Notes: a model not told the origin generated them from the letters alone. DNA of 64,000 nucleotides from Syntrophaceae bacterium (GCA_009773315.1 WRPE01000003.1:62001-126000); one strand, 5' to 3'. Shown: positions 27,959-62,853, counted from the first letter of the stretch. Translations and numbers: made by a program.

Positions 27959-28375
27959 TTATATCTTTAATAGTCCTTTTTCCATGAGGTAATAACCGTT
28001 ACCACTCGTAGAGTATGAAAGCTCAATAAATGCCTTTAGGACATCATCGATTTTCTTTTTTTGTTCTACTACACCAATAACGTCGTCCAATAAAGATTCA
28101 AGTTGTTCAATTTGTCTCTCATTTACTTCAATATTTATATCCCCTGCTTTCATCGCAGCGAGTCTTTGCTGAAATGCACCCTGGGTGTGATTAACAACAT
28201 GGTGTAAATATAAAATGTCGTTATCATATTCCAAGTTCAGCACCCTTAAAAACTGGGCGGGGATCGCGCTGTAATAAAATAGTTTCTTTTCCAGGCTGGA
28301 ATTTTCTTTCATTTTTTTCTGCACATATTTTATTTCATTAACGATTGCAGTTTTATAAATTTTACTTATTTTCAT
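27959..28375 (-). CDS. Third gene of the toxin-antitoxin operon, unknown function
   Basis: 138 residues, acidic and mostly helical, with no signal peptide or membrane segment. It contains a cluster of Gln/Glu/Leu heptad-like residues around 95-115 that could form a coiled coil. I do not recognise the family. It follows the HTH antitoxin by 13 bases in the same direction, has a GGAG upstream of its ATG, and is the last gene of that operon. Three-gene TA operons exist in which the extra gene is a chaperone or regulator, but nothing in this sequence assigns such a role. Confidence 0.75.
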   Translation of the reverse strand: MKISKIYKTAIVNEIKYVQKKMKENSSLEKKLFYYSAIPAQFLRVLNLEYDNDILYLHHVVNHTQGAFQQRLAAMKAGDINIEVNERQIEQLESLLDDVIGVVEQKKKIDDVLKAFIELSYSTSGNGYYLMEKGLLKI

Positions 28376-28388
28376 ATTTCTCTCCTAT

Positions 28389-28811
28389 TCAACAATTCGC
28401 TGCTGATGTTATATTCGTTAGCATCCATGCTGGTGGTGTATCTGCTAAATCGGATGCCTCAACTACTCTTTTTGTTTCAATCTGAGCATCTTCAGCAGTT
28501 GTGGCAACACGTTTAACTTCGGGAGAAGAAATTCCTTTTCCTTTAAATTCAATTGACAAGTCAGTTTTTAAAACGTCGGCCATCGATAATAAAGTGCGAA
28601 TAGTAAAATTCGGATTGCCGTTAAGAATTTTACTTACTGCCGCCGGTGTCACGTTTAGTTTCTCGGCAAATTGTTTGCGACTGATTTTTTCTTCTTTTAA
28701 TTTCTTACTGATTTGCTCCGTAAGCTCAAAGACTAGCGCTTCGAGACGAAAATCGAAATCATCCTTATAGGAATCAAACAGATCGCCAAACCATTTTTCA
28801 GTGCTTTTCAT
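28389..28811 (-). CDS. XRE-family HTH antitoxin (HigA-like)
   Basis: 140 residues. The central helix-turn-helix reads ISRKQFAEKLNVTPAAVSKILNG (residues about 43-65), a textbook Cro/CI fold. The N-terminus may hold dimer contacts, and the C-terminal 45 residues are probably disordered, suited to wrapping a toxin. It lies just downstream of the HigB-like gene, the toxin-first order typical of hig modules. Palindromic sites at 29213-29228 and 28818-28831 are its likely operators. Confidence 0.85.
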   Translation of the reverse strand: MKSTEKWFGDLFDSYKDDFDFRLEALVFELTEQISKKLKEEKISRKQFAEKLNVTPAAVSKILNGNPNFTIRTLLSMADVLKTDLSIEFKGKGISSPEVKRVATTAEDAQIETKRVVEASDLADTPPAWMLTNITSAANC

Positions 28812-28817
28812 TATAAT

Positions 28818-28831
28818 TAACCTTTAGGTTA
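28818..28831. promoter_or_regulatory. Second HigA-like operator, between toxin and antitoxin genes
   Basis: TAACCTTTAGGTTA is a perfect palindrome with 6-bp arms and a 2-base centre, 7 bases upstream of the antitoxin start. It shares the AACCT half-site with the palindrome over the operon promoter at 29213-29228. Confidence 0.6.
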
Positions 28832-28842
28832 CTTTTAATAAG

Positions 28843-29208
28843 TTATCGACGCTTTTCACGTAATTCTTTAAGCCATTGCATGGCTTTTTCTTTTTCCTGC
28901 TTTAATACTTTCGAGTGCGGTTTAACGAAACCATGGGTAAGGACAAGCTTTCTTTCTCCATGCCAGAAACACAATATTCTTATGCCATTACGTGTTTTGA
29001 GCTCAAATATTTCGTCGCCCAGGGACCTGAAATGCTGCTGATTGTGAATATTTAATCTATCCGCTCTTTGCTTAATAAGATTAACGACCTGTTTCCTGTC
29101 GCTATCTTCAAGCCCACTGATAAAATCTCGAATAAGTAACTTTTTGTTTACTACCAAAGCATACAGAATGAGTTCTTCGCCATCCAGCAATACTTCAATA
29201 TCAACCAT
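28843..29208 (-). CDS. RelE/HigB-superfamily toxin
   Basis: 121 residues of the phage-derived Gp49-like (HigB) family. The core has NGIRILCFWHGERKLVLTHGFVKP, the beta-strand region common to these mRNA interferases, and a basic C-terminus. Such toxins cut mRNA on the ribosome unless bound by the cognate antitoxin. It is the first gene of the operon; its start codon lies only a few bases after the predicted transcription start, so the toxin message is nearly leaderless. Confidence 0.85.
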   Translation of the reverse strand: MVDIEVLLDGEELILYALVVNKKLLIRDFISGLEDSDRKQVVNLIKQRADRLNIHNQQHFRSLGDEIFELKTRNGIRILCFWHGERKLVLTHGFVKPHSKVLKQEKEKAMQWLKELREKRR

Positions 29209-29264: not shown

Positions 29265-32200
29265 CTAGAATTTCCATTCCTTCTTTATTTTCTTTAAAAC
29301 CTCGTCAATTTCCTTTGTATCCATGCCTGGCTTAGGCTTGATGCTGATGCAGGCTTCAACAACGGGGTCGCAGCCGGCTAGTAACTTTGTGATTTGGTGA
29401 ATCTCTTCTCCAAGCGTCTGCACGTCGGCAATGTTGAGTGTCACCATGTTGGTTCTTCGACGACCACCATAAGGTTTTTCCGGGGACGGCTCTGCATCGC
29501 GTATGCGTTTGATGATCAATGCCTTTTTCCCGTCATGCAGCAAGGAATCAATGCGCGCTGAACCGGAAGCGACATGAATAAAGCCCTGACCAATAGCGCT
29601 GTTGATTCCGTCCAGGAAAATGTTTTCCGGCCATGGTTTTCCGCGGATCGTCTTAAGTGCGGCGTAAAGTGCTGCTACATCCGATTTTGGCTCGTCCTCT
29701 TTGGACCAAGCGGCGGGTAACGCTGCGGGGAGAAAATCAATTGCCGCCAGGGCTTGCGGCGGTCTGTAAAGCTGCGCATCGGGATCAAGCTGAATGGTGC
29801 TTGGTTTTTCTTTAAAAACACTGTCGTTGCCGTAAATCAACCACAGGGCGCCTCCGGTAACTGAAGAACTGATCGCCGATTGAACGACAATATAATCCAC
29901 TTGGGGTATTGGACGCGGCTCCGGTGGATAACCCGGCATGGTCTCTTCCTCAAAGCAATGACTACCGTCAAACCAGCTATATAATTCGGACAACTTGACG
30001 CCACGATCATCTGCCGGCCATAAGCTGGTTAGAGCATCCGGCAAAACGGCTGACGGACTAAGCGAAGTCAATTTTGCTTTTTGCGGCAACCAGGCTTCGG
30101 CGATTTGCTCCCAATCCGCCATATCGATTGCGCTATGCCAGAACCATTGTTCCGACCCGTCCGACCGCACGCAACGCAAAGCCAAAATGCCCTTGCGTAC
30201 GGCATCTTCAATCGTATTGACCACAACCTGCCGGTTGAGCAGTTTGGGCAGCTTGGCCTGCTGGCCAAACGCCTGATAAAGATCAGTGACGCGCATGCTG
30301 GCATCGGTCGGCGGCCAGATCGCGTAAGGCCCGCCCGGCATCAATGCTGTTGCATCCATCCGCTCCATCAATAACCGGAGATCCTTTTCCATGAGAAGGG
30401 TTGATATGAGTGATTGAGCACCGATAGTGATCTTGCGTGAAGGAATCGAACCATCCTTGTCCAGATAAAGCACAATTTCATAAGCGTTCTTCACCGCATT
30501 TTGCGCTTCTTGCAGGGTTTCCTTTTCGCGCTTTTTGACCGTATCCTGCTGATATGACTCTAACTCGCCATATTTAGAGGAATTTTTAATTTCACCCCAG
30601 GCCATCCAGTCGGCAAGATGCTGTTCGGCCTGCGCAAGCCCGCTGACGCTCGGCGTGACCACGAGGATGATATTTTGATAGGTGCGTGTATCCGTCGGTG
30701 ACGAGTGGGTGCGGATATAATCCACAGCGCCCGGATTCGGCGGATCGCCCGTAACCCCGGCATAATCCGCGCCCAGCACCACCAGGCGAAATGTGCCGTC
30801 GTCTTCGACATCGGCGGGCGTTGCCGGAAGTTTGTGCGCCTTGATCTTATGCTGTTCAATTTCGGCAAAAAGCGGCGGGCACTTGGTTTTGGCCAGATCG
30901 TCAAATTTTGACTTTGCGTGTTTGAACATCTGGCGTTTATAGCTGTCATGGACCTGATTCAAATTCGGCTTCGGTCCCAGCCGCCAGAATTTCGGCACAC
31001 CGCTGCCGCTTTCCGTGCTGTCGCATTCCTCCAGATACCACGAGACACGCGCCCAGGATGTCAGCCCCGCATTAAGCACCGCCGGCATGTCGCACGTTGC
31101 CCCCAGAAGCCAACGCAAATCGCTAAGTTCTGCCTGCTCGCCGACCGGCTGGGAAAAAATAAACGAAGCAACGCAGGCCGTTTCTATTTCTCTTCCTGTC
31201 AGGGTGGGCGCATCGGCCTTTTGGGCTTCCAGCGCGCGGGGCAGTTCCGTTTCCAGATTCTCTTTCCACGGCGGCAAGGTGTTGTCGCGGGCGGAAAGCT
31301 TGGCCACATCTGCCAGCTTCAATAACGCCTCGCTTAATCCGCCCTGACCGGGAGCGGCCAAAAATACCTGCGGGCCGACAAGCGGCGACGTATCCCACCC
31401 CTCGGCGTCGCGAAGCGCCATGGCAAACGTTTGCAAGACCCCCCGAGTGCGCTGGAACTGGGACAGATCAACCCATTTCCCGAAAAAACGGTCGAGAAGA
31501 TCTGGATGAAACGGATAGGCTTTCTTTAAGCGTTCTTCCGAATCGGGCATTTTTGCCTTGATCGGATCAATGTTTTTCATCCGCGACCAGAAGGCCAGCA
31601 CATGGCTGTGACGCACGGTTTCCGCTTCGGGATATTTTTCAAACATTCGCCGTCTTAAAAGTTCCGCCAGATCGTCTTTTTCCACCGGCGACTGGATGGA
31701 GGCCATCCTGCCCAAACCGCTGTTGCAGGCGGCCATGATGGACTGCCCCACACCGTCAGCAATCTTTGACGGATCGGTGGCCAGAAGCGAAACGACAATG
31801 CAGGAACGCTCGGAAGATTCCACAGCCTGCACCAGTTTTTGAAAGAAATTTTTAAGCCGGTCATACCAAAATGGACCGCGCAATGTGCCATCACCTGTTG
31901 AAGCGGGGGATGCCGCATCATGCGCCCACATCAGAAATTCATCAATGAGGATCAAAGCCCCATTCCCCGATGATTCAACTTCCCGGAGAATGTCCGACCA
32001 AAGGGTATCCGAGGGCGGCGTGTCAAAATCCGGTTCCGCCTCGTTGCGATTAAGAATGTCCAGCCCCTTTTGACCGAGAAGCTGCCAGGCAATCAGATTC
32101 CACGGCATTTTGAACCGGCGGATTTCGCCCGCAGGGGATTTGACTTCGCCGCCACTTTTCCAATCCACGTGTTCGAATGACACCGCAGCAATGCGCGCCA

Positions 32201-32597
32201 CGGGCGGGTTTTTAATATGAGCGTCATTGAGAATCATTTTTACCGACGTTTCTTCTTTGGGCAGCGCCGGTCCCAGCGTCGTCAGATAGTAAAGCGTCGT
32301 GAGGGTGTGCGACTTCCCACCGCCAAAGGTTTGCGATATGTTGATGACCGATTCGCCGCCTGATTCTCCGGCCAGGCGTTTCAGCACAACCTTGCAGAAC
32401 TGCCGCAGGTTTTGTGTGGCATAGGTCGTGGAAAAAAAGTGGGCAGGATCGCAATAATAAGGCTTTGGACCGGGCGCGCCAAAGGTGACCTTATGGAGAT
32501 CGATAGCAAAATCGCTTGCCGATAACGTCCGTTCCCGGATCTCCTTGCGCAGGATGCAGGTTTTGCTCCACGGCTGAATTGTAAAAGTTTTATTCAT
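29265..32597 (-). CDS. DUF499 AAA-type ATPase of a defence system
   Basis: 1110 residues. Walker A is FGGGKSHT at 91-98 and Walker B is ALILIDEF around 214-221. This is the DUF499 (COG1483) family of large predicted ATPases, which in many genomes are encoded with DUF1156 methylases and large helicases. A role as an NTP-driven restriction or translocation component is inferred from the company it keeps. GAGGTG lies upstream of the ATG. It is the third gene of the island operon but is separated from the methylase gene by 307 bases of repeats. Start, length and motifs look intact. Confidence 0.88.
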   Translation of the reverse strand: MNKTFTIQPWSKTCILRKEIRERTLSASDFAIDLHKVTFGAPGPKPYYCDPAHFFSTTYATQNLRQFCKVVLKRLAGESGGESVINISQTFGGGKSHTLTTLYYLTTLGPALPKEETSVKMILNDAHIKNPPVARIAAVSFEHVDWKSGGEVKSPAGEIRRFKMPWNLIAWQLLGQKGLDILNRNEAEPDFDTPPSDTLWSDILREVESSGNGALILIDEFLMWAHDAASPASTGDGTLRGPFWYDRLKNFFQKLVQAVESSERSCIVVSLLATDPSKIADGVGQSIMAACNSGLGRMASIQSPVEKDDLAELLRRRMFEKYPEAETVRHSHVLAFWSRMKNIDPIKAKMPDSEERLKKAYPFHPDLLDRFFGKWVDLSQFQRTRGVLQTFAMALRDAEGWDTSPLVGPQVFLAAPGQGGLSEALLKLADVAKLSARDNTLPPWKENLETELPRALEAQKADAPTLTGREIETACVASFIFSQPVGEQAELSDLRWLLGATCDMPAVLNAGLTSWARVSWYLEECDSTESGSGVPKFWRLGPKPNLNQVHDSYKRQMFKHAKSKFDDLAKTKCPPLFAEIEQHKIKAHKLPATPADVEDDGTFRLVVLGADYAGVTGDPPNPGAVDYIRTHSSPTDTRTYQNIILVVTPSVSGLAQAEQHLADWMAWGEIKNSSKYGELESYQQDTVKKREKETLQEAQNAVKNAYEIVLYLDKDGSIPSRKITIGAQSLISTLLMEKDLRLLMERMDATALMPGGPYAIWPPTDASMRVTDLYQAFGQQAKLPKLLNRQVVVNTIEDAVRKGILALRCVRSDGSEQWFWHSAIDMADWEQIAEAWLPQKAKLTSLSPSAVLPDALTSLWPADDRGVKLSELYSWFDGSHCFEEETMPGYPPEPRPIPQVDYIVVQSAISSSVTGGALWLIYGNDSVFKEKPSTIQLDPDAQLYRPPQALAAIDFLPAALPAAWSKEDEPKSDVAALYAALKTIRGKPWPENIFLDGINSAIGQGFIHVASGSARIDSLLHDGKKALIIKRIRDAEPSPEKPYGGRRRTNMVTLNIADVQTLGEEIHQITKLLAGCDPVVEACISIKPKPGMDTKEIDEVLKKIKKEWKF

Positions 32598-32904
32598 ACG
32601 CGCACCTCACTAAAAGTCGGATATTTCCCATCAATATATCGTTCATGTCTTTTCTCCCTCGCTTTGTTGACACTAATACCCACTTCTTTTGTCATTGCTC
32701 CCGGAGGGAGCGCGGCAATCTAAACAGATTGCTTCGCTGCGCTCCTAAGAAACTTCCCCGCCCCTTGCGGGAGGGGATTGAGGGGAGGGGGCAGCTTTTA
32801 CTCTCACCCTCCCCCTGCCCCTCCCGTCGAGGGAGGGGTGATTACAGTTTCTTCCATTTATAACCCGGTGCGAATCATCGGGTAAATTACCCGCAATGAC
32901 ATCT
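32598..32904. repeat. Composite dispersed-repeat element between methylase and ATPase genes
   Basis: 307 bases without a gene. At 32691-32745 lies a GTCATTGC...GCGGCAATCT...AGATTGCTTCGCTGCGCTC element that folds back on itself (GGCAATCT/AGATTGC). It resembles a common dispersed repeat class seen in many bacterial genomes. At 32753-32839 a second element of C/G tracts (CCCCTCCC, GAGGGGAGGGGG) also forms inverted repeats. Short plus-strand open frames here have no coding character. Confidence 0.75.
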
Positions 32905-35900
32905 TCATGTTTCGGTGGATTCCTTTTTCTCATAGCCGATGTCCACATTAACCATCCTATCTTCCAAAACCGTTCTTTTGGTCACTTTCAACTGCGAGGC
33001 CAGCGCTTCAGCGATACGCCTTTCCGTATCGTCCTTATCGCGCAGGGCCAGTTCGCGGACAGCTTGCAAAAGCGGCGCAAACGCCTTCTCACTGGCGAGC
33101 GCCCAGGCATCAAAAAGCTGCTGTACGTCCGTCACGCGATTTTTCTCAAAAAGATACATCAGGCGATGCAGCCGGTCGATGAGCGGCGGCGTGAGACCGC
33201 CCCGCGACTCACCCAAATCGTCGCGTCCGACACGCTCCCGCCAGGAAAGAAGACGATACTCATTGCCCTTGCTTTCGCTTTCTTCATCTTCCGGATTGGC
33301 GTCGGTTGCGGCCGGTCGGCCTTTTTTCGATTTTCCGCCCTGTTCAATGATGTGCCAGACCATCTTCAATTCCGTTTCATTCTTCCCGCAGGCATTGGCA
33401 TAAAGAATACACGCGCCGGCAGGGGCCGGATCGAGGCCAAAATAAGCGCGGTGCAGAAGATAGTATTGTGTAACGGGGTCTAGATCAACGCCTTCGCCTC
33501 TTCCCTGCGTGGTCTGCTGAATATCTCGGAAACCCGGCAGTTCACCTAAGGAAAACTGCAAAACCAACCTGCGCACCTCTTTGAGAAATTCCGAGGCCTC
33601 CATGATGCCACCAGCAGTCTTTTTAACATAAGGATGAGCGCTGTAGGCTTCCAGCGCCGGACCGAGCGCTGCCCAGATAAAGTCCGGCCCCTTGATACCA
33701 AGATCAAAATAATATTGCAGGATATTTTTATTGCCCAATGCTACGCGTGGTTCAAAGAGCTTTTTACGCATGTCATCGAAAACTGTTTCCGCCCATCCCG
33801 GCTGGGCAAACTTATCTCTTTTTCGGCAGACAATCCAAACAGAAGTGGCCAATGCAGCGGAACTCATGCTACGTGTCCTTGTAGGCATTTCAGTCTCTAT
33901 AGGCCAGCTAGCTGTTACTACAGCACCGCCTCGAATTAAAGCCTGTATAAGTGTTTCCCATGCATCCACTTCTTTATTGGCAAATACTACAACCATTCGT
34001 CCATTTTTTTCCAATGAACCGCAGCAGCTTTGGAAGGACTGCGCCATACCATTTTCGTATGCTTTCTTAGATGCTGCTTTATCACCACCAAAGCGCGACT
34101 CATCATCAATCAGCTCACCATCTTGTCGGGTATGATCCCATTTGGGAGTTAGTTTTTCTTGTATCGTATCATCGACAATCGAAGAAATCCCCCATAAATT
34201 ACGGCGTAGCCATACATAAAAAAAATCCATAAGATCAGAATATGGAATAGCATCGTAGTATGGTGGGTCTGTTAGGACCAAATCAATACCTGTCCTTGAT
34301 ATGGATGTCGCAGACTGGATGTTTGCTGATATTTCCAATCCATGCAAACAGGCTTCTAGTCCGTGGTTGACATAACGGGAAACCCACTCAAGAGCCCCGC
34401 CGTAATTACCAGTCGTATTTGATACTGGCGATACCTCAGCGAAATCCCACACCATTGGAAGAGCAAAACGGCCAAAAGTATTGCGCATTTTCTCAGCCGT
34501 GTTATGCCACGTACAAAGTGCACTTGAATAGTCAACAAGTCTGTCAAAGACCAAAGACAAATAAGCGCCGACGGCTTCAGCTTCTTCATTTATGTTATGC
34601 CTTTTGTCGTTTGCTATCTCATGAATTGCTTTTCTGGTATGCTTAACAAATACACCAAGTGCATACAACTGACGCGGCGTAAACATCTCACGCCATTTTT
34701 TTATGCCATATTTGTGCAGAGAGAACGCTCGCGCCGCGCCGCTTCCGCCACCGGCGGGCGTTGGCTCATCAGGAATACCAAAAGGAATATCTTTGAAAAC
34801 CTCTTCAAGGTCTTCAATTTCTACTTCCGCTGCTTTCAACTCTTGTTCTTCGGGAAGGCGATATTTCTTGCAGGTCGTTTTTTTACCTGGTTTTACTGCC
34901 TCCACAACTACTGCGGTCATCTGTGTTCCCAAAAGACCTTGCTGGCCTTGGCGGCGCAGGTCGTCCATAGTTAACGCAATAAGCCCCGGCCGCCCAGTGC
35001 AGGGGCTCCATACCCCGGCGCGGTTCATCGTACCCTTGTTGAGAAAATCGTTTAAATTCTCCGCCGTCACATCCCAGGATTTCAGGTGCGGATATTGTTC
35101 GTGAAGCTTCTTTATGCCACCCGCAAAGAAATCTTCATCCAGTAATTTAAAATCGACGCCTGTCCCGTCTTGCTTCGGTATCGGCATAAGGGCACTACGG
35201 CGGCCGCTTTTCTTGCAGAGCCAAAAGGTCTTTAGCAGTGGGATACGGCCATAGGGCTGCATCTTATCGCGTGCGGTGCGCGCCCAAAGATAAGCCACGG
35301 TTGGTTCACCGTCAATGACGGGATAGCGCGCAGCCAGGTCCGCCCGCGCACGTTCCAGCACCCATCTGCCCCAGGCACGCACATGCCAGGCCAGATCGGC
35401 ATCCGGCATAGTGAATAGTTGTGGTTGTGAGGGATCAAAGAAAGGCCTCGTCTCTTTTCCCTTCCTTTTTTTGATTTTTCCTATATGCAGGTCTTCGATA
35501 AAATCCGGCCACTCTTTTACAAAATCGGGAAGGGGCCATTTCTTTCCGGCAAACTGGCGGGGATAGTCCAAAGTGCATTTGAGAATAAACCAGGCAACAG
35601 GATTAATATCCGAGGCGGTCACATCACAGCCGAGCCGCATGGCTTCGAGCGGTATCGCGCCACCGCCAGCAAACGGGTCAAGGACTTTAGGGGCTTTTCC
35701 ACCATAGGCTTCGAGAATCATCTTTCTGAATTCATCCATGTCCGGACTATTCTCCTGCCCCCAGGCCAGAACACCGCCTGCCAAACCCTCTTTTTCTTCA
35801 TTGATGCTGACACCGTCATTATCCGTGCTCTTCACATTTTTCATCACCAACGCGCCGCCGATCCGGTCCAGCAGTTCCTGGCGTTTTACCGGATCGCCCG

Positions 35901-36075
35901 GATCAGGAAGCAGGGTTGCCAAAAGCGCCGCGCGGCAGGCCGCCAATGGACGGCGTGCAGGCCAAATATGCAGGGTGGAGATGTGGCCGTGCCGGACATT
36001 CTTTTCATGCACGCTGGCTACGGATGCCTGTTTCATCGGGAAGGCCACTTCGATCAGCCTCGTCTTATCTTCCAT
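32905..36075 (-). CDS. DUF1156 DNA adenine methylase of a defence system
   Basis: 1056 residues. The N-terminal DUF1156 region (residues about 10-75, with HISTLHIWPARRPLAA) is followed by the AdoMet motif DPFAGGGA at 133-140. The catalytic motif DPPY is at 603-606, so about 460 residues containing target-recognition-like and unknown sequence separate them. The order and motifs suit an N6-adenine or N4-cytosine methylase (COG1743). It starts 2 bases after the helicase stop, so the two are co-translated. Its role would be to mark self DNA for the system. Confidence 0.9.
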   Translation of the reverse strand: MEDKTRLIEVAFPMKQASVASVHEKNVRHGHISTLHIWPARRPLAACRAALLATLLPDPGDPVKRQELLDRIGGALVMKNVKSTDNDGVSINEEKEGLAGGVLAWGQENSPDMDEFRKMILEAYGGKAPKVLDPFAGGGAIPLEAMRLGCDVTASDINPVAWFILKCTLDYPRQFAGKKWPLPDFVKEWPDFIEDLHIGKIKKRKGKETRPFFDPSQPQLFTMPDADLAWHVRAWGRWVLERARADLAARYPVIDGEPTVAYLWARTARDKMQPYGRIPLLKTFWLCKKSGRRSALMPIPKQDGTGVDFKLLDEDFFAGGIKKLHEQYPHLKSWDVTAENLNDFLNKGTMNRAGVWSPCTGRPGLIALTMDDLRRQGQQGLLGTQMTAVVVEAVKPGKKTTCKKYRLPEEQELKAAEVEIEDLEEVFKDIPFGIPDEPTPAGGGSGAARAFSLHKYGIKKWREMFTPRQLYALGVFVKHTRKAIHEIANDKRHNINEEAEAVGAYLSLVFDRLVDYSSALCTWHNTAEKMRNTFGRFALPMVWDFAEVSPVSNTTGNYGGALEWVSRYVNHGLEACLHGLEISANIQSATSISRTGIDLVLTDPPYYDAIPYSDLMDFFYVWLRRNLWGISSIVDDTIQEKLTPKWDHTRQDGELIDDESRFGGDKAASKKAYENGMAQSFQSCCGSLEKNGRMVVVFANKEVDAWETLIQALIRGGAVVTASWPIETEMPTRTRSMSSAALATSVWIVCRKRDKFAQPGWAETVFDDMRKKLFEPRVALGNKNILQYYFDLGIKGPDFIWAALGPALEAYSAHPYVKKTAGGIMEASEFLKEVRRLVLQFSLGELPGFRDIQQTTQGRGEGVDLDPVTQYYLLHRAYFGLDPAPAGACILYANACGKNETELKMVWHIIEQGGKSKKGRPAATDANPEDEESESKGNEYRLLSWRERVGRDDLGESRGGLTPPLIDRLHRLMYLFEKNRVTDVQQLFDAWALASEKAFAPLLQAVRELALRDKDDTERRIAEALASQLKVTKRTVLEDRMVNVDIGYEKKESTET

Positions 36076-36077
36076 TA

Positions 36078-39000
36078 TTAATCCCTTTCCGCTTCTTGTA
36101 TAATATCACCCATGTTGATGGTGAAGCTCTGGCGCGTTCGCACGGCCAATTTAAACGCCGGGTCTTGAACGCGGTAGAGCACCGGTTTGGTCGCGCAATC
36201 CACCACCACATAAAGCCAGTAGCGCTCCCGGATATTGGCCGCCGTTGGCCATTCGTTTTCTGTTAATTGTACCGGTCCCCTTCCGGCGCGGCCTTTGACT
36301 TCGATAGCGATTTTCTCGCCACTGGCACGATGGCTTTCGAGATCATACCCGCGAGCCAGCCTGGGCGACGAAACATCATAGACACGCGCCTGATGGTGGT
36401 CGATTTCATAATTGCGGGCGATGCGCATAGCCATCGCTTCAATGTTTTTATCGTAAGTCTCCTGCGCTTCGGGGCTGGTGTCCGGCACAACAAGCGCAAC
36501 GGCAATCTTTTCCATGCGGATGATTTCCAGTCTGTCGGCACGGTTTTGTTCATAGAGCATGGCCTTGGCTTTTTCTTCTTCCAGAAGCTTTTGTTTGTTA
36601 CGCACCTCTTCAAGGTCCTTTTGCGCCACCTGGTCGCCTTCACGGGCGCGGCGCGCAAGATCGCTTCGAGATTGTGCGAGTTCACTGCTTAAATAGTCAT
36701 AGCCGCGCGCCAGATCGTCCAAGCGGGAAACGGTTTCGGCCTGCACTCGTGTGCGTATCTGCTGCAGGAAGGTTGAATCGGCAAACATTCGCGCGTAGGT
36801 ATCGGCTTTATAAACCTGATCTTCGGGATTAAGCAGAAGATTACCGGCCTTCCAAATGAGTGACCGTGGGGCGGCAAGCAAAGCTAGTAAATGGTTAAAG
36901 GCACATTCCTCGAAGTTGCCTTGCTCATCCCAGCGAATGCCTAATAATAAACGGTCGGAAAGTGTTTTGGCTGTTTTTTGCGAACCGCTATCGGGTAGCA
37001 TTTCACCAATCTGAAAGATATAGACGGCTAAATAATAAGGTTTTTCCGCAGTTGGATCACAAAATGCCGCTCCCCGCATAATATCCGCCCGCAACCGGTT
37101 GATGGCCTCACTGCACATGGTGTCGAAGATAACTTCACCGGGCCTAAGAAAAGCGCATCTGGAAGCGTCGATATCGCCCAAAGCAAGATCGCGCTTAACT
37201 GAAAGATAATCCGGCAGGCCTTGCGGAAAATGCTCCGATAAATCATATAACCAGCGCCCCTCGGCGCCGGATACGGAAAAACGCGCCGGGCCTATGAGAT
37301 CACCCTGAATCTCCATGCCAAGCCGTGGCGCAGCCTTTTCAACAAAATTTTGCACATAAGCGGGCAGAAGTTTTGTGAAGCGCTCTACATCTATCTCGTT
37401 ATTGAGCTGACCAAGCCGCTTGGCCACGTCGCCAAAGGCGGAGGCATTCTTTCGTTGCTCTTCGATGGTTGCTCTTAGCTTTTGCGTGGCAAAAATGGAT
37501 TCTAACTTTTTCTGGGCGGAATAAGGTGGGATTTCAAACAGAGCGTCACGCAAAAGATCGCGCAAGGAAACATCTTTCAGTAATTGTCCGACCACATCAA
37601 ATACTTTATCGCTGCATAGCGCTTTTCTGGCTTCTTCCAGCTTTTCAAGAAGCGTCGCCAGCACGTCACCTTCACGCGTATTTTCCGCGACAAGATTAAA
37701 AATGCGCACTTCGGGATTCTTCTGGCCGAAGCGGTGCAGCCGCCCCATGCGTTGCTCTAACCGTGCCGGATTCCAGGGGATGTCGAAGTTTACCATAATC
37801 CAGGCAAATTGAAGATTGATGCCTTCACCAGCCGCATCCGTGGCCAGCATAATCCGGGCGCTTGGGCCTTCGGGATTTTTCACCCCTTGAAGACGGCGCG
37901 TTGCAGGCGGCATAAAAAACACCCGCTGCCGTTCACGCTCTTCAACGTCCATGCCGCCATGGATATGGGCAATCTGGCCTGTGTAACCAAGTGCTTCAAA
38001 TCTCTGAATCAGGTATTCCAGCGTGTCGCGGTGCTCGGTAAAAATGAGCAGTTTTTCGTTTTGATATTGGGCGGATTCGATCAGTTCCCGCAGTTTGAAA
38101 AATTTAGCTTCCTGGAAGGATTCTTTGACGGATTCGCCCAACTCGATGGTGCGTTCAAGATACTCTAATTCTTTTTTAAGCTGTGCGGCGTTCTTCGGTT
38201 TCGCCAGATCAAGGGCTGCCGATTCAATATGTTCATCCGATTCCTGTCCATCGCTGGACGGTTCACTATCGTCAGCCGTGCTGGTGTCGAAATAGTCAAT
38301 CAAATCTTTGAGGGATAGCGGATGATTTTTTTCTTCCGTTTCCGAAGCACTTTGAATAATACGGGCTTTGCGTCTTTTGAGCGATTCGACCATGGCATAT
38401 GCGGAGCTGGCCAGGCGACGCTGCAATACGGCCAAAACCATGGCGGCAGCATTTTTGTTAAGACTGGTGTTATTTTCATAACTCCAACGTAAATATTCGG
38501 ATACTTCTTTGTAAAAATGCTGTTCAGCTTCGGTAAGCTGGAAGCTGATGGTTTGGCAAAGCCGCGGCATGTAAATCGGACGGCCTTCGTAATCAATCAT
38601 TTCTTCTTTGAGACGTCTTATAAAATATTTTGGCCGTTTATCCATTGCTAAAGCCGCGACGGCATCTTCCGACGTAAAGACATTGCCATCCAAAAGACGC
38701 CAAAGGGCTGTATAAGGAAAAGACTTCCCCATGTGTGGGGTTGCCGTTAAAAGAAGAAGGTGTGTTGAGTTGTCGCCCAGTGCTTCAGCAAGCCGGTAAC
38801 GCCGGGTTTTGCTGTCTGGTCTTTTGGGATCACTCCAGGAAAGTTTATGCGCTTCGTCAAAAACTAACAAATCGAAAACATCTATCGCATCAGACGTAAG
38901 GTGATCCTTAATGGATACAGTTGCCGCCGTATCAACACTAATGATCGCAAAACATTTATCATGGGCTGGAATCGGGTTCCCCTTGGTAAAATCCGTACCG

Positions 39001-39572
39001 CGCAATATGGTGAAATCCAGATCGAAGAAATTTTTTAATTCCCGTTGCCAGTTCCAGGTCAAACCGGCAGGACAGCACACAAGAACGCGAGAGAGGCGCC
39101 CGCGATTGACCATCTCCCGAATATACAGACCGGTCATAATCGTTTTTCCCGCGCCTGCATCATCGGCAAGGAAAAAGCGCATGGGATTTTGCGGAAGCAT
39201 GTGTTCATAGACTGCTATGCGCTGGTGCGGCAAGGGGACTACGGTGGAGAGTTCCAGACCATAAGCCTTATTAAAAAGATGACCATTTTGAAGACGGTAA
39301 GCGTCAACAACAAGTTTCAACGATTCGGCATCGCCTTCAAAGTCAAGGCGGGGTATGAGTGGGATTTGCATGGCTATATTTGATCCCGATTCATTAATCG
39401 TTGACTTTTCATCTAGAAGAGAACGCAATCTATCTATTCTGTCTTTTTGTGGCTTCGCCTTCCCGTTTTCCCATCTATTGACGGTGGCAAAGGAAACCCC
39501 TATTTTGGCAGCCAAATCCTGTTGGGAACAACCCAGTCTTATTCGAATATTTTTTATTTCTTCTGCTTTCAT
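36078..39572 (-). CDS. HTH-SNF2 helicase-DUF3883 fusion protein of a defence system
   Basis: 1164 residues. Residues 1-55 are a Cro/CI helix-turn-helix (CSQQDLAAKIGVSFATVNRW). An SNF2-type superfamily 2 helicase follows, with Walker A DDAGAGKT at 137-144 and DEAH at 239-242; motif VI is LEQRMGRLHRFGQ. A coiled-coil stretch (about residues 985-1035) leads to a C-terminal DUF3883 domain with GYDLES...IAIEVKG, which resembles the D...ExK core of PD-(D/E)XK nucleases. The HTH fused to a restriction-type helicase is unusual. The ATG is almost at the predicted transcription start, with no ribosome-binding site. Confidence 0.9.
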   Translation of the reverse strand: MKAEEIKNIRIRLGCSQQDLAAKIGVSFATVNRWENGKAKPQKDRIDRLRSLLDEKSTINESGSNIAMQIPLIPRLDFEGDAESLKLVVDAYRLQNGHLFNKAYGLELSTVVPLPHQRIAVYEHMLPQNPMRFFLADDAGAGKTIMTGLYIREMVNRGRLSRVLVCCPAGLTWNWQRELKNFFDLDFTILRGTDFTKGNPIPAHDKCFAIISVDTAATVSIKDHLTSDAIDVFDLLVFDEAHKLSWSDPKRPDSKTRRYRLAEALGDNSTHLLLLTATPHMGKSFPYTALWRLLDGNVFTSEDAVAALAMDKRPKYFIRRLKEEMIDYEGRPIYMPRLCQTISFQLTEAEQHFYKEVSEYLRWSYENNTSLNKNAAAMVLAVLQRRLASSAYAMVESLKRRKARIIQSASETEEKNHPLSLKDLIDYFDTSTADDSEPSSDGQESDEHIESAALDLAKPKNAAQLKKELEYLERTIELGESVKESFQEAKFFKLRELIESAQYQNEKLLIFTEHRDTLEYLIQRFEALGYTGQIAHIHGGMDVEERERQRVFFMPPATRRLQGVKNPEGPSARIMLATDAAGEGINLQFAWIMVNFDIPWNPARLEQRMGRLHRFGQKNPEVRIFNLVAENTREGDVLATLLEKLEEARKALCSDKVFDVVGQLLKDVSLRDLLRDALFEIPPYSAQKKLESIFATQKLRATIEEQRKNASAFGDVAKRLGQLNNEIDVERFTKLLPAYVQNFVEKAAPRLGMEIQGDLIGPARFSVSGAEGRWLYDLSEHFPQGLPDYLSVKRDLALGDIDASRCAFLRPGEVIFDTMCSEAINRLRADIMRGAAFCDPTAEKPYYLAVYIFQIGEMLPDSGSQKTAKTLSDRLLLGIRWDEQGNFEECAFNHLLALLAAPRSLIWKAGNLLLNPEDQVYKADTYARMFADSTFLQQIRTRVQAETVSRLDDLARGYDYLSSELAQSRSDLARRAREGDQVAQKDLEEVRNKQKLLEEEKAKAMLYEQNRADRLEIIRMEKIAVALVVPDTSPEAQETYDKNIEAMAMRIARNYEIDHHQARVYDVSSPRLARGYDLESHRASGEKIAIEVKGRAGRGPVQLTENEWPTAANIRERYWLYVVVDCATKPVLYRVQDPAFKLAVRTRQSFTINMGDIIQEAERD

Positions 39573-39579
39573 GGTTATC

Positions 39580-39626
39580 AGTATAGCGCTTAATAAAGCA
39601 ATGTCAAGATATTATTTATTGCTATA
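39580..39626 (-). promoter_or_regulatory. Promoter and candidate operator of the defence operon
   Basis: Minus-strand TTGACA (39603-39608), a 17-base spacer and TATACT (39580-39585), almost perfect consensus. The expected transcription start is about 39573, next to the ATG at 39572. An imperfect inverted repeat flanks it: TATAGC at 39582-39587 with GCTATA at 39621-39626, and AGCAAT at 39597-39602 with ATTGCT at 39618-39623. This could be bound by the HTH of the encoded helicase. Confidence 0.65.
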
Positions 39627-39793
39627 TATAGTATGTTATATATTTTTTATGTATATGTTTATAATAATTTTTTAATTGTTTATTACGAATTGCAAAACGT
39701 CTTGATTATAAAAGAGCGACGGCAAATCATCATAAGTGGTTGATTTTTAGCTGGTGAACAATTGCACGGGTTTTTTCGGAATTGGGGTTTCAC

Positions 39794-62286: not shown

Positions 62287-62853
62287 TCAGTCATAGAGCT
62301 TTCTCACCATCCAGGAGATCTTTTGCCCCAGGGCCTGTGCGCTCTGGACACCTTCCTCATCTTTTTTTACATCTCCCTTATCTCTGGCAACACTCATGGC
62401 TCGACCGGCAATAATAAGCTCGTTACTGAAGAAAAAATGGTTCATGGTTTCGATTGTATGTAACCCTCCGGTACGACGAAAGCAGGATACAGAAGCCCCG
62501 ACTTTGTTCTTGTACATCCTCCCATTTGCCAGTCCGACGAAACCCGCCCGGTCGATCAAAGCCTTCATTTCCGCTGTTACAGCCTGAAAATAAGAAGGAG
62601 ATCCCAAAACGATACCCTGAGCCGTTGTCATCTTTTCGATATACGCATTCGCCGCATCGTTCTTAACGGCGCATCGTCGGTCCTGATTCTCGAAACATTT
62701 ATAGCATGCTATACACCCGTGAATCGCCTTTGCCGAGAGCTAAACGAGTTCTGTTTCAATACCCTCCTTCTCGATCTCCCGTAAGAGATAGCCTATCAAC
62801 GTGGTGGTGTTGCCATCTTTCCTAGGACTACCATTGAAAGCGATAACCTTCAT
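62287..62853 (-). pseudogene. Iron-sulfur flavoprotein-like gene with an in-frame amber codon
   Basis: The frame starts at 62853 (AAGGA upstream) with MKVIAFNGSPRKDGNTTTL, the FMN-binding loop of NADPH-dependent FMN reductase-like flavodoxins. It stops at TAG 62740-62742, after ELV. The same frame then continues with GCIACYKCFENQDRRC, a C-x2-C-x2-C-x7-C cluster typical of iron-sulfur flavoproteins, and runs to 62287 with normal family sequence. Full length would be 188 codons. The TAG could be a nonsense mutation (CAG to TAG), a sequencing error, or read through. Confidence 0.8.

Follow-up and report, generated by a model that had tools for sequence, protein, structure and literature searches.

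The 64,000-nucleotide stretch of Syntrophaceae DNA analyzed here (hereafter, the window) carries, at positions 29265–39572, three long minus-strand open reading frames (ORFs) transcribed in the order hmaA, hmaB, hmaC (Table 1). An initial annotation of this DNA had placed three very large same-direction genes at exactly these coordinates and read them as an SNF2-type helicase, a DPPY methylase, and a Walker-type ATPase, a reading with which Pfam and sequence motifs agree. Above curated cut-offs, Pfam finds HTH_3, SNF2, Helicase_C, and NOV_C (= DUF3883) on HmaA, DUF1156 on HmaB (2e-18), and DUF499 on HmaC (6e-18), which upholds both the family assignments and the fusion of an HTH to the helicase. 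The helicase motifs of HmaA (DDAGAGKT, DEAH, QRMGRLHRFGQ) are accompanied by an IEVK core at aa 1090–1093, and the motor and catalytic motifs all appear intact in the three proteins.

The hmaA and hmaB genes lie 2 bp apart, and hmaB and hmaC 307 bp apart. The latter spacer was considered as a dispersed repeat and rejected as such (one other 40-bp match in the genome); its GC-rich inverted repeats are possibly a scar or an RNA structure. The adjoining toxin–antitoxin module of the initial annotation is present, with a Gp49/RelE-like member at 28843–29208 and an HTH protein at 28389–28811 (Pfam); it is not found in related loci and was discarded as a core part of the operon. After this pair comes a 138-codon ORF of no known family (27959–28375). 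Visual inspection of the flanks suggests PanC/PanD-like genes to one side of the operon and AdoHcyase- and LptF/G-like genes to the other.

Table 1. Features of the hma locus and its neighbor, in window coordinates.
Feature	Position	Strand	Description
hmaA	36078..39572	-	1164 aa; XRE-HTH + Swi2/Snf2 helicase + RapA-like middle region + NOV_C (DUF3883) PD-(D/E)XK nuclease (predicted)
HTH_3 domain, N-terminal, of HmaA	39411..39557	-	aa 6-54; Pfam 2e-12; recognition helix SFATVNRWENG
NOV_C nuclease domain of HmaA (predicted)	36171..36440	-	aa 1045-1134; Pfam 2e-17; D1077, E1091, K1093 invariant
hmaB	32905..36075	-	1056 aa; DUF1156 amino-methyltransferase; DPFAGGG, DPPY
hmaC	29265..32597	-	1110 aa; DUF499 AAA+ ATPase; Walker A GGGKS; without N-terminal HEPN
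Putative HmaA operator	39625..39640	.	TATAACATACTATATA on hmaA strand; clade variant of TATAnCAnnTGnTATA
Sigma-70-like promoter of hmaA	39580..39607	-	TTGACA-16-TATACT; 11/12 consensus bases
hmaB-hmaC spacer	32598..32904	.	no evident gene; GC-rich inverted repeats
HigBA-type toxin-antitoxin pair	28389..29208	-	neighbor, outside core; Pfam

Relation to known defense systems

Judged from its genes, the window operon is the known Hma anti-phage system (helicase-nuclease, DNA methylase, ATPase): the three adjacent genes on one strand match the corresponding PADLOC models at E-values of 4e-154 (HmaA), 7e-108 (HmaB), and 1.5e-70 (HmaC). The Hma trio was named in 2021 and is widespread, with 1,638 loci in 26 phyla (Payne et al., 2021, PMC8565338), and in 2026 it was placed as Type-1 among three BREX-related (BR) types (Rakesh and Krishnan, PMC12839542). 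As early as 2013, an SNF2 helicase fused to DUF3883 (a “novel REase domain”) had been described alongside a DUF499 ATPase and R-M components encoded in the same operon (Anantharaman et al., PMC3710099). Since this composition was described in 2013, 2021, and 2026, it is usual, and indeed the rule in Hma/Type-1 BR systems, for the helicase itself to carry DUF3883 and for no further nuclease to be encoded; these two points are not distinctive, as the initial annotation took them to be. That annotation knew of no experimental work on this exact composition; anti-phage activity of a related Halomonas nuclease–Snf2 helicase was reported in 2024, at least as cited in PMC12839542.

Within the BR classification, the window holds the Type-1 gene set (DUF499 ATPase, DUF1156 methylase, and Swi2/Snf2 helicase, each above curated Pfam cut-offs), and the C-terminus of HmaA has a predicted nuclease fold with invariant residues, corresponding to the active PD-(D/E)XK nuclease present at this end of the Type-1 helicase in 79% of taxa (PMC12839542). 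Type-1 helicases were also assigned an N-terminal TUDOR domain, a proposed reader module (PMC12839542); at this position in HmaA, Pfam and the structure model give instead HTH_3 within a five-helix N-terminus, with the helicase starting at about residue 75. With an HTH in place of TUDOR, the window is thus a Type-1-like variant, atypical of Type-1, from which it further differs in an ATPase without HEPN and in predicted self-regulation. The marks of Type-2 (a DUF3780 gene and an HKD nuclease at the helicase N-terminus) had no Pfam match in the three genes and three small downstream genes, and PglZ (Type-3 BR/BREX) is not in the locus, where the operon consists of three genes only. Against the DISARM DrmD equivalog the helicase scores 351.6 bits (cut-off 610), the NCBIfam equivalog models for DUF1156 and DUF499 proteins are likewise missed by far, and the phage collection yielded no homologue. 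The 2013 neighborhoods share with the window the SNF2–DUF3883 fusion beside R-M components and DUF499 but differ in that HEPN is fused to DUF499 there (PMC3710099). Compared with Hma as published (PMC8565338), helicase, methylase, and ATPase are again in one operon and all three PADLOC models match, whereas in the window lineage the helicase begins with an XRE HTH and the promoter contains a conserved palindrome.

The nuclease fold, the absence of which would have counted against the restriction-like reading of the initial annotation, is in fact predicted. Modeled alone, the NOV_C domain (pLDDT 84) resembles archaeal Holliday-junction resolvases (best Foldseek E 4e-4; against 2wcw, VIA-align Z 11.1 and rmsd 2.7 over 111 residues), with further matches to the homing endonuclease I-Ssp6803I, SPARDA subunits, and restriction enzymes. 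Fold comparison was needed to see this likeness, since a sequence search for PDB relatives of the domain came back empty. Together with the invariance of D1077, E1091, V1092, K1093, and E1107 in an alignment of 38/38 diverse HmaA proteins, the model predicts a PD-(D/E)XK nuclease fold with a putative catalytic D…EVK. In the whole HmaA model (pLDDT 83), residues 73–1033 track RapA (Z 23.6, 737 aligned, rmsd 7.7), a resemblance already published for this family.

A lineage of HmaA with an N-terminal HTH

The HTH of HmaA is 434-repressor-like by sequence. In the window's phylum, eleven HmaA relatives (the window's included; 41–100% identity) align over their full length from the very N-terminus, and many lower-identity relatives align only from about residue 75. 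An HTH peculiar to the window could be dismissed, given the HTH-bearing lineage: scanning bacterial and archaeal genomes gave at least 80 HTH-bearing loci among at least 495 related stretches, a mutually related set in which changed helices are under-sampled because the search pattern was a peptide from the HTH recognition helix. By Pfam, HTH_3 and NOV_C are both present in 38/38 lineage members, and no HTH was detected in seven HTH-less HmaA proteins, the N-termini of which are beta-rich by eye. In a tree built from the helicase core only, HTH and HTH-less proteins (the latter mainly from one phylum) are split by a branch with support of 100. The HTH lineage spans more than 15 phyla, among them Pseudomonadota, Thermodesulfobacteriota, Acidobacteriota, Verrucomicrobiota, Planctomycetota, Chloroflexota, Bacillota, Armatimonadota, Spirochaetota, Bacteroidota, Gemmatimonadota, Lentisphaerota, and several candidate phyla, along with one archaeon. 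On these sequence comparisons, the HTH is the mark of a monophyletic HmaA lineage, in which it stands in place of the reported TUDOR. In the main texts of PMC8565338 and PMC12839542, we found neither an N-terminal HTH nor a promoter palindrome, and the HTH-bearing branch is apparently undescribed.

In all 69 loci with an hmaB match (69/69), hmaB lies downstream of hmaA on the same strand, and the gap between the two ranges from an overlap to about 8 kb across the fetched loci. Cargo in this gap includes a CBASS nucleotidyltransferase with Cap15, YhcG/DUF1016 (PDC-S02), HEC-07, HEC-01A, Schlafen-AlbA, and metallo-beta-lactamase (examples of the slot are L039, L079, L040, L038, L046, L041, and L105), and all of it sits downstream of the candidate operator described below. 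This embedded cargo gives the Hma relatives a strong defense context. The window has no cargo between hmaA and hmaB, and its HigBA-type pair is instead downstream of hmaC. In plasmid p3 of Planktothrix agardhii (L137, 8797–18835), the helicase and DUF1156 genes of the Hma operon are separated by a RelE/ParE–HigA pair.

A palindrome upstream of hmaA

A motif search constrained to palindromes, run for 82 loci on the 220 nt that precede the HTH, yielded a 16-bp palindrome, TATAnCAnnTGnTATA, upstream of hmaA (19.4 bits; ~90% of loci), with a log-likelihood of 597 against 38–46 in eight shuffled sets. At 12 bits, it is found in 68/82 loci and in 0.34% of shuffled sequences; at 15 bits, 65 matches fall in the 17.8 kb of hmaA upstreams versus 1 in the remaining 1.48 Mb, and this sole distant match is itself at an operon head, in a locus with an extra 491-codon gene before hmaA (L066). 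None of 18 upstream regions of HTH-less hmaA (0/18; a comparison set mainly from one phylum) exceeds 4 bits. The motif also carries over to other data: with the matrix frozen, 11/13 newly fetched HTH loci score at least 12 bits (one of the two below has an altered helix, VSLAS), and a matrix trained on the window's clade only (15 loci) recovers the motif and detects it in 53/67 other loci.

Presence of the palindrome follows the recognition helix. With a helix of the form [ST][FY]x[TSA][VIL]NRWE, it is found in 65/71 loci, and with other helices in 3/11 (p 1.1e-5, a value that is indicative only, given the helix-patterned search and the related loci); the helices of these three differ only by S-to-A before the phenylalanine. 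A few loci with the canonical helix are without it (L092, L069, L072, L045, L058). Altered recognition helices (VNFVTLSRWELG, VTPLTVxRWESG, ASSSAVNRWENG, VSVAAVNRWENG) occur without the palindrome in L094, L078, L065, L098, L096, and L113; by sequence these HmaA loci probably have other operators and would form a natural specificity-switch set. In L096, translations ~3.4–4.9 kb upstream of hmaA contain repeated PPRARGQ/FTPACAGTT peptides, in the manner of a CRISPR array.

The position of the palindrome relative to promoter-like sequences varies. In many loci, a −35-like TTGAC or TTGCC lies 10–12 bp before it, so that the palindrome fills the −35/−10 spacer, and at such spacer-type promoters repression is the likely sign of regulation; in other loci the −35 follows the palindrome, at about +19 to +23 or +32 to +35. 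A second element, CACGCGAT, accompanies 36/68 palindromes at an offset of 31–32, on one side in 25 loci (e.g., L103, L105, L085) and mirrored on the other in 13 (e.g., L101, L112, L072), with both sides occupied in only 2. This geometry, constant in either orientation, suggests that palindrome and CACGCGAT make up one composite element that is recognized as a whole. Methylation of CACGCGAT by HmaB was also considered, and no result of the analysis speaks for it.

The window's own copy, TATAACATACTATATA, is the top match of the 64-kb window at 18.6 bits and still scores 13.0 bits with a matrix trained without its clade, a value reached by 0.6% of shuffles (p 0.006). It is an imperfect palindrome with a weak right half-site, and L034, L037, L040, and L046 keep this variant, or one almost identical to it, at a closely similar distance. 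Because the site is a variant, the strict consensus TATAnCAnnTGnTATA has zero matches in the window's own genome; CACGCGAT is absent from the window's hmaA promoter. The putative operator lies upstream of the −35, not in the spacer, with its center ~60 bp before the predicted start. The TTGACA-16-TATACT promoter downstream of it predicts an hmaA transcript starting at about the ATG, i.e., a leaderless or nearly leaderless mRNA. A weaker second match to the operator matrix (12.2 bits), far from hmaA at 62698–62713, is possibly due to chance.

Proposed self-regulation and alternative readings

We consider it probable that the window represents an Hma lineage with an XRE HTH in the place of TUDOR, in which HmaA would be both effector and regulator of its own operon through the promoter palindrome. 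As a dimer, the HTH would bind the TATAnCAnnTGnTATA-family palindrome at the operon promoter, and from there HmaA may set the expression of hmaA, hmaB, and hmaC as well as of the defense cargo (CBASS, YhcG, Schlafen) that loci of the lineage often carry between hmaA and hmaB; binding of HmaA to its own promoter and its control over the operon are our inference. HmaB would mark self DNA by amino-methylation, HmaC would act as an ATP-driven scaffold or sensor, and HmaA would move on foreign DNA and cut it with its PD-(D/E)XK domain. The restriction-like reading of the initial annotation, in which the helicase chain senses and cuts unmodified DNA and the methylase marks self, stands in part: the literature, the predicted nuclease, the intact motifs, and the defense cargo of relatives agree with it, but it left the HTH unexplained, and for this domain the comparisons across loci favor a role in self-regulation over one in sensing unmodified DNA.

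The HTH might instead serve in target recognition and guide the helicase-nuclease to particular sites on foreign DNA, regulation being secondary or absent; this would accord with the sensing idea of the initial annotation, and the position of the HTH, where TUDOR, a proposed reader, is reported in other Type-1 helicases, speaks for it. We nonetheless judge it improbable, given that within these loci the palindrome sits at hmaA promoters and almost nowhere else (65 versus 1), that its presence tracks the recognition helix, and that a 16-bp site would occur too seldom in phage DNA to serve well as a target. Ownership of the palindrome by a different regulator (host factor or partner protein), with another role for the HmaA HTH, would fit the second element at fixed spacing, which implies more than one DNA contact at these promoters, and the weak right half-site of the window's operator. 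Such an owner is quite improbable in the face of a palindrome that recurs across more than 15 phyla with differing host regulators, is missing from all 18 HTH-less Hma promoters, and goes together with the recognition helix of HmaA itself. As for the new three-gene defense composition first proposed, the low NCBIfam equivalog scores (DUF1156, DUF499, DrmD) are what could be said in its favor; with PADLOC Hma models matching all three genes and the composition laid out in three papers, it is refuted by published descriptions, and we give it next to no credence.

Self-regulation of this kind has parallels in restriction–modification (R-M) systems, where some methyltransferases use an N-terminal HTH to repress the gene that encodes them and where C proteins serve as regulators (reviewed in PMC3874152). 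As there, a defense protein would act through an HTH at an operator in its own promoter, and sequence comparison finds in the window both an HTH on a defense enzyme and a conserved palindrome at that enzyme's promoter; the HTH is carried there by the methylase or a small separate protein, whereas in the window the helicase-nuclease, on the restriction side, bears it. RptR likewise represses a defense operon at its promoter through a site conserved across genomes (PMC12255303), but is a separate small protein with a 6-bp site, TAGCTA.

A more speculative extension of the self-regulation model is that HmaA, drawn onto invading DNA, might leave its operator and so alter operon output. HmaA would then be sensor, regulator, and effector in one chain, sitting on the composite promoter element, leaving it upon engaging invading DNA, and switching on the operon with its exchangeable cargo (CBASS, YhcG, Schlafen). 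We hold this to be unlikely, though if true, one effector would command a whole defense cassette.

For Hma/BR systems, little has been established about how large restriction-like operons are controlled so as to spare the host and about how the embedded cargo comes to be expressed with them. The palindrome TATAnCAnnTGnTATA offers a signature for the operon heads of the HTH lineage, even where a gene is inserted before hmaA, and a conserved operator combined with an HTH on the effector amounts to a directly testable control circuit across more than 15 phyla.
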